Shown piece after piece: positions 1,515-4,762 of a DNA stretch of 5,079 bases. Numbering within the stretch: position 1 is the first letter of the stretch; every line of letters starts with the position of its first letter. The stretch lies in the NCBI GenBank assembly GCA_017537045.1, contig JAFYLN010000091.1:1-5079 (forward strand), given 5' to 3'. The translations under genes and the position numbers were made by a program. The notes below the pieces were generated by a model. It was not told the origin of the DNA and ran no database searches. It saw only the letters and a list, made by a program, of their open reading frames with translations. This stretch comes from Oscillospiraceae bacterium. GTDB taxonomy: Bacteria; Bacillota_A; Clostridia; Oscillospirales; Oscillospiraceae.

Positions 1515-1543
1515 TTGACAAACATTAGCTAGATTTGTCTAAC
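1515..1543 (+). promoter_or_regulatory. Right-end -35 box; hybrid outward promoter
   Basis: TTGACA (1515-1520) is a perfect -35 consensus located 12 bp inside the inferred right end of the IS. In IS110 elements a promoter is assembled when the right end joins the left end in the circular form, and this box is suitably placed, predicting a -10 a few bases inside the left end. In the integrated copy the box is followed after 17 bp by TCTAAC (1538-1543), a 4-of-6 match to the -10 consensus in flanking DNA. It could therefore drive the downstream acetyltransferase gene. The -35 is clear; the -10 and actual use are inferred. Confidence 0.55.
1533..1540 (+). other. Right target flank matching the bridge RNA guide
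   Basis: ATTTGTCT is the exact reverse complement of leader positions 86-93 and begins at the base after the donor-guide match ends (1532). AT at 1533-1534 is the most plausible core dinucleotide, because AT also occurs in the predicted left target guide (67-68) and is complementary to 92-93. One donor-guide base (T135 against A1533) disagrees, so the core is provisional. This is where the host sequence, the former target site, resumes. Confidence 0.6.
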
Positions 1544-3049: not shown

Positions 3050-4762
3050 GTGAACGGCCTACTCAAAGCCTTACAACTGGATAACGAAGACCCCCAACAG
3101 ATGAAACGGGAGGCAGCGTGGCTCTGGACCCGGATCAAGCGCAACCGGGGACTGATCCTGGCGGTGTCGGCGCTGAGTCTGATCGGCGCGATCATGGGCT
3201 TGGGCAGCAGCGTGGCCTCCAAGTATTTGATCGACGCGGTCACCGGGTTGGATGGGCGGCGGATCTTGATGGCCGCTTGCTGCATGGGACTTCTGACTTT
3301 GGGCGCCATTGTCCTGCGGGGTGTTTCCTCCCGGATGGGCGCTGCCATTCATATGAAAGTCTACACCCATAACCAGCGCAAGGTGTATAAGCGGATTTTG
3401 CGGGCCGGCTGGGAGGCTCTGGAGCCTTACCGCAGCGGCGACCTGCTCCACCGGCTCAATTCCGATGTGGCCAGTGTGTCCGACGGCGTGATCTCGGCGG
3501 TGCCGAATGCTTTGACGGTGTTTGTCCGGTTTGCCGGCGCTTTCGCTATTATGCTGGTATTTGACCCGGCCATGGCGCTGATTGCTCTGTTGGGTATTCC
3601 CGTGAGTCTGGGCCTTTCCCGGCTGCTGATGGGCCATTTGCGGCGGCATAACAAGCTGGTTAAGGAACTGGGCAGCGAATTGATGTCCTTCCAGGAGGAC
3701 TCCTTCCGCAACCTGACCAGTATCAAGTCCTTTTCCATTACCGATCTGTTTTCGGATAATCTGCGAAAGCTTCAGGGTACATACTCCGAGGCCTATATGT
3801 CCTATAACGCTTCTCAAATTTGGATCACCACGATTCTTTCCTTGATCAGTACTCTGGTCAGCGGCGTATGCTTTGGTTGGGGTGTGTACCGGCTGTGGCA
3901 GGGGACAATGACCTTTGGCAGCCTAACCATGTTTATGATGCTGGCGTCGACGCTTCGCTCTTCTTTCTCCTCTTTGATCAGCTTGATGCAGCAGGCGGCG
4001 TCTTTGATGACCTCTGCCGGGCGGATCATGGCGGTGGAAGAACTGCCGGAGGAAGAGGATGAGATCCCCGAGGGTTTGGAGGACGAGGAAGCGCTGTCCA
4101 TCAGCCTGGAAAAGACCGCGTTCTCTTATCAGGATGGGGCGGCTGTGCTCCAACCCTTTGAGTTTACCGCCGAACCCGGCGATATTATTGCTGTTACCGG
4201 CCCCTCCGGTGAGGGTAAGACCACCCTGTTGCGGCTGCTGCTGGGCTTAGTGCAGCCGGTTGCGGGCGAAGCCAAGCTCCGGGGCAGAAGTGGAAAAACC
4301 TATCCGCTGACCGCCGGAACCCGCAGTATTTTTGCTTATGTGCCCCAGGGGAACAGCATTTTTGCCGGAACAATTGCCGAAAATCTGCGAATGGTTCGTC
4401 CGGAGGCTACGGACGAGGAATTGATTCAGGCGCTGAAAACTGCCTGCGCCTGGGAATTTGTAAAGGAATTTTCCGACGGCTTGGAGCATCGGTTGGGTGC
4501 CGGCGGCCGGGGAATCTCCGAAGGTCAGGCCCAGCGATTAGCGATCGCCCGGGCGCTGCTGCGGGGAGCTCCGGTACTGCTGTTGGATGAAGCCACCTCG
4601 GCCATGGATATGGCGCTGGAACGGAAGCTGCTGGAAAACCTGAAGGCGGGCGGCGCGCTGCGGACCTGCATTCTGGTGACCCATCGGCCTGCCAGTGTGG
4701 CCTACTGTAACCGCGCTTATGAAGTAAGCAACGGTGTGGTTGAGGAGATTTTCCCCGGATAA
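3050..4762 (+). CDS. ABC exporter half-transporter (fused membrane and ATPase domains)
   Basis: A 570-aa type I ABC exporter half. The membrane domain covers about residues 33-310, with hydrophobic segments near 34-56, 70-92, 150-170, 172-192, 258-280 and 290-310. An acidic linker (EELPEEEDEIPEGLEDEEA) joins it to the nucleotide-binding domain (about 350-568): Walker A GPSGEGKTT (G384-T392, K390), Q-loop YVPQGNSIF (Q433), signature ISEGQAQR (I489-R496), Walker B VLLLDEATSAMD (D513, catalytic E514) and H-loop H545. All ATPase motifs are present; the signature is ISEGQ instead of LSGGQ, a variant known in this group. It must dimerise with itself or an unseen partner. The substrate is unknown: a drug, lipid or peptide are all possible. 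The GTG start follows GGGGGTG (3037-3043). A start at an internal ATG (residue 18) is possible but lacks a clear ribosome site. The next gene begins 24 bp after the stop, suggesting an operon. Confidence 0.93.
   Translation: MNGLLKALQLDNEDPQQMKREAAWLWTRIKRNRGLILAVSALSLIGAIMGLGSSVASKYLIDAVTGLDGRRILMAACCMGLLTLGAIVLRGVSSRMGAAIHMKVYTHNQRKVYKRILRAGWEALEPYRSGDLLHRLNSDVASVSDGVISAVPNALTVFVRFAGAFAIMLVFDPAMALIALLGIPVSLGLSRLLMGHLRRHNKLVKELGSELMSFQEDSFRNLTSIKSFSITDLFSDNLRKLQGTYSEAYMSYNASQIWITTILSLISTLVSGVCFGWGVYRLWQGTMTFGSLTMFMMLASTLRSSFSSLISLMQQAASLMTSAGRIMAVEELPEEEDEIPEGLEDEEALSISLEKTAFSYQDGAAVLQPFEFTAEPGDIIAVTGPSGEGKTTLLRLLLGLVQPVAGEAKLRGRSGKTYPLTAGTRSIFAYVPQGNSIFAGTIAENLRMVRPEATDEELIQALKTACAWEFVKEFSDGLEHRLGAGGRGISEGQAQRLAIARALLRGAPVLLLDEATSAMDMALERKLLENLKAGGALRTCILVTHRPASVAYCNRAYEVSNGVVEEIFPG

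Follow-up and report, generated by a model that had tools for sequence, protein, structure and literature searches.

Two guide matches at the right junction of an IS110-group insertion sequence with a predicted bridge RNA

Among the described systems with which this locus can be compared, IS621 offers the fullest parallel. As set out in the available text of the two reports on it, IS621 combines a DEDD/serine recombinase with a bridge RNA that lies in the left end and whose target loop precedes its donor loop (PMC11208160, PMC11208158); there, the 5′ strand of a loop has the sense of the left DNA, the 3′ strand is antisense to the right DNA, and the joined ends bear a sigma-70 promoter. The handshake guide of IS621 is described in the same text as base pairing with the donor after strand exchange (PMC11208158), and AT, GT and TT cores are described as functional at lower efficiency (PMC11208160). 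A further IS110 subgroup, as far as its accessible description goes, has transposases of 395-455 aa, an upstream non-coding region and a circular intermediate whose abutted ends form a promoter (PMC11187229). ISEc21, the tested IS110-family member of that description, differs from the element studied here in its target, a conserved part of IS3-family elements (PMC11187229).

The stretch of DNA analysed here, a window of 5,079 nt from an Oscillospiraceae bacterium, contains an IS110-group insertion sequence adjoining a GNAT acetyltransferase gene, and the record opens inside the element. The recombinase type, the position of the predicted bridge RNA, its loop order and its strand senses are shared with IS621, as is, in the sequence of one relative, the promoter of the joined ends; the protein length, the upstream non-coding region and the promoter-forming joined ends also fit the second subgroup. 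In contrast, the core is TT here and CT in IS621, the protein has 397 aa compared with 328 aa in the solved IS621 chain, and the left donor guide skips the base adjacent to the core. Moreover, the handshake-type bases of this element can both pair with their cognate DNA, a pairing which blocked exchange in IS621 according to the available text (PMC11208158). We hold with high confidence that an IS110 element, guided by a bridge RNA and exchanging strands at a TT core, produced the junction at 1525-1541.

Family membership and extent of the element

All features described below lie on the forward strand. The open reading frame at 228-1421 encodes an IS110-group DEDD/serine transposase (recombinase) of 397 aa, which scores above cutoff against PF01548 (144.9 bits) and PF02371 (67 bits) and reaches 200.3 bits against NF033542, ‘IS110 family RNA-guided transposase’ (NCBIfam cutoff 140). 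The only solved structures that it matches are those of the ISCro4 and IS621 transposases. The ISCro4 bridge recombinase (PDB 9t56) is the best of these, with the TD..D and YxSG motifs included, although it is distant (two matched stretches, 55 bits). Motif position and the ISCro4 alignment place the catalytic DEDD and serine residues at D7, E57, D99, D102 and S320, and we take their roles to be those given in the IS621 literature.

A long non-coding left end with a structured, predicted bridge RNA precedes the gene, as is typical of the IS110 group. The IS1111 group would have its long non-coding region downstream; here 227 nt (plus about 10 missing) lie upstream and 112 nt downstream, and the guides are likewise located upstream of the transposase gene, contrary to the IS1111 layout. 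The left end occupies positions 1-200, as delineated by an alignment of 33 left ends (A1), its consensus structure and the comparison of left ends. The right end covers 1422-1533, finishing TTGACAAACATTAGCTAGA; it is conserved in relatives, where TT and variable sequence follow. Relatives open with GGTAATATATAAGCG or variants directly after TT, and close with TTGACAAACATTAGC(T/A)(A/G)GA directly before TT. Measured against these starts, some 10-12 nt of the element (GGTAATATAT in close relatives) are missing from the window, and as the record begins inside the left end, neither the left target nor the left junction of the window is readable.

Our comparisons draw on a scan of genome contigs that found 98 relatives, of which 80 were kept. 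Loci L001-L044 (60-98% identity) were used and L045-L080 (36-39%) were set aside; three partial loci on viral contigs were left out. Loci L045-L080 make up a second IS110 subfamily from the same scan. Transposases of the same protein family also occur on plasmids and phages, all below 60% identity: 1,793 plasmid records, with 45.4% the best among the matches listed (a Pseudobutyrivibrio xylanivorans plasmid), and 31 phage records, with 44.0% the best among the matches listed. As for the neighbouring gene, the GNAT open reading frame runs from 1561 to 2079 (172 aa), and many of the best 120 of its 544 homologues have 153-158 aa at ∼89-91% coverage; these shorter homologues suggest that its native start may lie near 1606 rather than at 1561.

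A predicted bridge RNA and its guides

Alignment A1 comprises 33 of 45 left ends (44 loci plus the window), the remainder being truncated at contig ends, duplicated or missed by the script; L044, which is close to L043, was removed by hand. In the consensus fold, a hairpin at the 5′ end is followed by two stems that contain internal loops, supporting two guide-bearing loops. The 5′ stem-loop (1-26; helix 1) has 9 pairs, 5 of them changed on both sides, with 98.7% of cells paired. It is followed by the predicted target-binding loop (34-114; helices 2-4), comprising outer stems, guide strands and an inner GGG/CCC stem, and by the predicted donor-binding loop (119-177; helices 5-8) with an outer stem, guide strands and an inner stem. 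Helix 6 of the donor loop is doubtful because its predicted pairs use the last letter of the left donor guide.

Over the whole fold, pairing holds in 98.1% of cells, and 87 cells show changes on both sides, values reached in 0/500 shuffles for either measure. Two of the five measures are weaker, namely 13 pairs changed on both sides (7/500) and 37 further pair types (20/500). Helices 1 and 8 have the highest density of compensatory changes. Since the structure came from the alignment on which it is assessed, the slid control is biased towards it. The fold of the single sequence is unremarkable (z −1.66), and a search of Rfam returned one sub-threshold match and no bridge RNA family.

Guides were sought by scanning 5-nt RNA windows against every flank or end position in both senses, with 1,000 reshufflings of the partners as control; these shuffles keep the kinship among copies. 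The left target guide, TTCCAA at 62-67, is followed by the core-pairing TT at 68-69. Across 24 copies, RNA 62-67 in sense orientation was the best window against left target positions −6 to −1, scoring 1.96 compared with a mean shuffled maximum of 0.45 (0/1,000), and the guide equals its own flank at 6/6 letters in 18 of 26 copies; against this, the site of L003 matches its left guide at only 2/6 letters. The left donor guide, TTAGCTAG at 127-134, has the same sense as 1525-1532, and positions 128-134 covary with right-end positions −8 to −2 (29 copies; 0/1,000 shuffles). For the right donor guide (165-170: ACC at 165-167, core-pairing AA at 168-169 and a handshake-type T at 170), the scan of 31 copies selected 163-167, antisense to +1 to +5, again with 0/1,000 shuffles as good; the letters read GGT, CTT, CGT or AGT depending on the copy. 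Its control excluded the RNA 5′ end because this is the same DNA as the partner; with the 5′ end included, self-identity tops the list. Read by these guides, the donor of the window's element would be TTAGCTAGA-TT-GGTAATA and its predicted target TTCCAA-TT-TGTCTA.

Counts of guide matches omit L009 (joined ends), L015 (duplicated left end), L023 (a duplicate contig) and copies with less than 8 nt of flank, and L008 was counted after removal of one extra T. A held-out set of 12 further stretches contains the right end in 11 and target-loop guides in L160 only; since L160 is the contig of L012 (and L171 is L038), the set supplied no new guide pairs. At positions 19909-19926 of its contig C47, genome G011 has the element-free sequence GACAAATTGGAATTTGTC, which agrees exactly, as a left target, with the guide of L011, a copy from the same genome.

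The right target guide (86-93: AGACA at 86-90, core-pairing AA at 91-92 and a handshake-type T at 93) is antisense to 1533-1540. Here, the scan of 25 copies gave 85-90 antisense as the top window, yet 393/1,000 shuffles were as good, and matching across the family is loose: letters 1-5 all agree in 5 of 26 copies, and four or more of the five in 13 of 26. TTTGTC might thus reflect a fixed preference of the recombinase, or of sites near promoters, with the right-hand 8-mer agreeing with the RNA through a family consensus and not through guide pairing. The weak covariation would fit this reading, as would a T followed by (G/A)TC, which recurs in targets irrespective of the guide. Outside the main guide match, the target is also fixed as C/T at −10 (23/23), A at −9 (22/23) and A at −8 (23/23). 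However, the right target window still tops the scan in the right place and sense, a directed permutation test gave 55/20,000, and unusual letters are matched in some copies, as in L019 (TGTATA to TGTATA). We consider the fixed preference unlikely and keep to guide pairing. A point against the guide reading on the left side is position −7 of the target, which is A or C and disagrees with the guide letter throughout (equal in 0/23 distinct pairs).

With three guides covarying with their DNA partners, the RNA structure and the family membership, the bridge RNA proposed in the earlier note is upheld. These features, like the end positions, the joined ends of one relative and the element-free sites described below, are read directly from sequence; expression of the RNA, its binding by the protein and catalysis are inferred. 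In this reading, the bridge RNA is encoded by the left end. Guides 62-67 (left) and 86-92 (right) of its target loop would recognise the landing site, and guides 127-134 (left) and 165-169 (right) of its donor loop the abutted ends of the element itself. Strand exchange by the recombinase (228-1421) at the TT core would then yield left donor, TT and right target in this order.

The right junction and its core

The product of such an exchange would be the sequence at 1525-1541, and it was here that the earlier note had reported two abutting 8-nt matches. Both are exact. The left donor match TTAGCTAG at 1525-1532 is identical to 127-134, and these are its only copies in the window; ATTTGTCT is unique at 1533, and its reverse complement AGACAAAT is unique at 86, so that 86-93 faces 1533-1540. 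Both matches are maximal, extending on neither side, and they abut at 1532/1533. The transposase stop codon ends at 1421 and the first match begins 104 positions later, close to the ∼110 bp given earlier. The strand senses, previously said to follow IS110 logic, agree with IS110 biology in the accessible published text (PMC11208160).

Could the two matches be a coincidence? The region is AT rich and short matches are common in it. Nevertheless, abutting sense-then-antisense 8-mers with one partner in 56-175 and the other in 1422-1700 arose in only 13/20,000 first-order Markov shuffles of these two regions, in keeping with the original judgement that chance was improbable, and scans over the other copies chose the same segments. 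We regard coincidence as next to inconceivable: the two 8-mers are genuine matches, and the place where they meet marks the junction between the right end of an IS110-group element and host DNA. The left donor guide would match the element side, while the right target guide and its handshake-type base would match A1533, the core and the target side. The 8-mers abut because the left donor guide ends before A1533, whereas 86-90, AA (91-92) and T93 cover target, core and A1533, respectively.

The split into 8 plus 8 letters is not the biological boundary, as the second 8-mer is made up of a single base from the donor, the core and five bases from the target. While the guide matches did locate the junction as claimed, the right end had been set one base off and the right target half of the evidence is the weaker one. 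Of the second 8-mer, ATT is element end plus core, leaving four insertion-specific letters, GTCT, as the T after the core is common to 25 of 26 copies. The right target reads TGTCTA (1536-1541), letters 1-5 of which pair with 86-90 and letter 6 of which is mismatched.

Comparison of copies bears out the prediction that they share sequence up to about 1532-1534 and then diverge: relatives are conserved to 1533, followed by TT and variable sequence. Identity of copies past 1540 had been named as evidence to the contrary, and the sequence after the core varies between copies. They are partly alike there, with a T and then often GTC or ATC, because the targets share a consensus.

The likely exchange point is the dinucleotide TT at 1534-1535. 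Donor and target have TT in common, as the shared core of IS110 elements demands, usually preceded by A; CT itself is absent. The base after TT is T in 25 of 26 targets, but the left end of the donor has G, C or A there (T in L024, whose left end differs). Right ends were collected with a pattern that itself requires (A/G)TT and that matches 38 of 45 sequences (44 loci plus the window), the other 7 being cut by contig ends or off-pattern; the base before TT is A in 37 of the 38 and G in L039. This base has target identity at the left junction and donor identity at the right junction. In the four readable copies where both guide and left flank are TTCAAG (L004, L008, L010 and L013), the left junction keeps G, whereas the right junction has A in 7/7 copies with this guide (L003, L004, L008, L010, L012, L013 and L015). 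At the left junction, L003 (mismatched site, A on the left) and L015 (damaged left end) are uninformative. Since the left junction keeps G while the right has A, A1533 is most likely donor sequence, the core TT and the end of the element A1533.

The alternative is an AT core at 1533-1534, which the left donor guide would then meet directly. The two loops of the RNA both present AAT opposite ATT, the left donor match stops exactly before A1533, and comparison with the available text on IS621 (PMC11208158) would allow the T that precedes the inner GGG stem to serve as a linker. Furthermore, the left junction of L015 reads G and then AT, albeit in a partly duplicated left end. A base within an exchanged core should go either way, however, and the TTCAAG copies keep G on the left (four copies) and A on the right (7/7), which makes the AT core improbable. 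The tandem duplication in L015 (2725-2790) comprises the first ∼25 bp of the left end.

With TT as the core, one point against the model is that A1533 finds no partner in the left donor guide, whose pairing would end one base short of the core unless that base is bulged. By analogy with IS621, T93 may have a handshake role, pairing with donor base A1533; in L039, G precedes TT and the RNA carries C, as such pairing requires, in a single event. This role is suggested with caution because T93, unlike its IS621 counterpart, can also pair with the usual target A. The empty site of the window would be expected to run TT TGTCTAACTG from 1534.

One relative contributes a natural junction of two element ends. 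In L009, positions 1-420 hold codons 359-397 of one copy, its right end, a single TT and the left end of the next copy, an arrangement that a tandem pair would explain, as would an assembled circle. The junction, CATTAGCAAGA-TT-AGTAATATA, creates the promoter-like sequence TTGACA-17-TAATAT. In the window, the −35-like box TTGACA lies at 1515-1520, and in the joined ends of L009 it stands 17 nt before TAATAT; the rebuilt promoter is thus seen in the sequence of this one relative.

Target sites, their surroundings and guide turnover

No empty site of the window turned up when its right flank was compared with 394 genomes from the order of genome G001; 63 had some match, the longest spanning 635 bases (69% identity) within the HAD region. 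Likewise, a search for the empty site of L033 in 5 genomes of its genus found L033 alone. The flank of L018 was matched in 24 of 60 genomes of its genus, exposing a tyrosine-integrase element but no clean empty site.

Sites of the same class without the element came from the genus of the L036 genome (Pseudobutyrivibrio sp. YE44), where the module found right after the element in L036 occurs in 16 of 29 genomes. Twenty of 31 such places were read: the element's right end stands before TTTGT(C/T)AATTTCA in three (L036, L038, L028) and other sequence in 17. The change-over in these 17 coincides with the core. Its position is fixed only to about two bases, since the query started at the core and A is the last letter both of the element and of 15 of these 17 sequences (13 of them finishing in CGA). 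In 10 of the 17, CAAA and then 6 or 7 further letters stand before the core. For example, L133, which is 99% identical to the flank of L036 over 105 nt, reads GACAAATGTCGA-TT-TGTCAATTTC. The 17 are partly dependent, as L141/L142 and L133/L145 share upstream sequence, and they are same-class sites lacking the element rather than proven pre-insertion alleles. In L013, a ∼290-bp repeat (∼1800-2110 and ∼4306-4600; 95% identical) has one copy at the right target; the second, ∼940 bp leftward, is preceded by GACAACTTCAAG and lacks the element.

The target might instead serve another mobile element, such as a tyrosine-integrase element or a cassette island, for attachment or crossover, and the IS110 element would then merely follow that element. 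L018 and L020 do sit at the integrase-gene end of a tyrosine-recombinase element, L024 has a related integrase 1.4 kb away, and L127 and L124 have that integrase end without the IS. Yet the L018 integrase query matched the flanks of just 4 of 44 loci, L033 weakly and at 0.9 kb, and the remaining listed flank ORFs, which were not annotated gene by gene, are diverse. Nor is GACAAA-N6-TTTGTC enriched genome-wide (15 forward occurrences vs 18 for the reversed control in 24 genomes), a count on which a target consisting of an abundant palindromic repeat of this form was also rejected. We therefore give this explanation very little credence and retain recognition of the landing site by the guides.

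Of the loci at such integrase ends, L018 carries its IS110 copy at 1199-2755, and L124 and L127, two relatives without the IS, read GCAAAT followed by TCCGATTTG or CCTGATTTG at that end, a site of the same class. In the genus of L036, loci L153, L154 and L155-L159 contain a long island of accessory genes, mostly on one strand, beside a gene that we take from its sequence to be PPDK. Several of its genes are common to genomes in differing order, and a promoter-like module of ∼54-105 nt is repeated, ending near CAAA-N6-TTTG before start codons. A reading of this island as an integron-like cassette array was dropped because CAAA-N6-TTTG occurs only twice in its 51 intergenic stretches.

The surroundings of the target recall promoters. 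On the reverse strand, an exact TATAAT lies within +5 to +32 of the right target at 8 of 31 sites compared with 7 of 372 control windows, and on the forward strand at 0 of 31 compared with 2 of 372; three of the eight (L028, L036, L038) are one common module, and since the control windows are partly coding, the contrast is favoured. With one mismatch allowed, the −10 box is enriched on both strands (0.48 reverse and 0.42 forward; controls 0.14), and the signal is thus partly AT-richness. Among neighbouring ORFs of 130 aa or more and no farther than 700 nt away, as given by a crude ORF caller, 26 of 29 on the right face the element; on the left, 17 of 25 face away from it, which is not significant (p 0.11). 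The window is atypical, its right neighbour GNAT pointing away and its best −10 match having 4 of 6 letters.

A tentative and somewhat doubtful interpretation is that this branch evolved to land at host transcript starts in a fixed orientation, where it would form a removable block separating promoter from gene. Guides and a fixed frame would choose a site between −10 box and ribosome-binding site, and the element would sit antisense to the host promoter. If true, antisense landing at promoter starts would be a testable route for switching neighbouring genes. Among the matches listed in the open-licence literature, we found nothing on this IS110 branch or on an antisense preference for promoter starts; print may hold more. 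One paper reportedly treats IS elements in repetitive extragenic palindromes.

The guides themselves change at different rates, as compared in 30 of the 33 copies, with ORFs of equal length. At ORF identities of 90% or more (8 pairs), divergence of the right target guides is 0.225 per site compared with 0.060 for the ORF; left target guides, at 0.042, are not raised. At 80-90% identity (64 pairs), left and right target guides reach 0.339 and 0.369, respectively, compared with 0.142 for the ORF. Donor guides change less than the ORF in every identity class.

The mechanism has been described before, and the present branch, from gut and rumen bacteria, adds a new instance. Guide matches in raw sequence can place the end of such an element, and comparison of copies confirms the placement to within a base. 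With 44 loci plus the window and 33 aligned left ends, the branch is a natural family with a native TT core whose target guides change faster than its donor guides, and as such it may be useful for choosing CT-independent bridge recombinases and for asking how natural retargeting happens.
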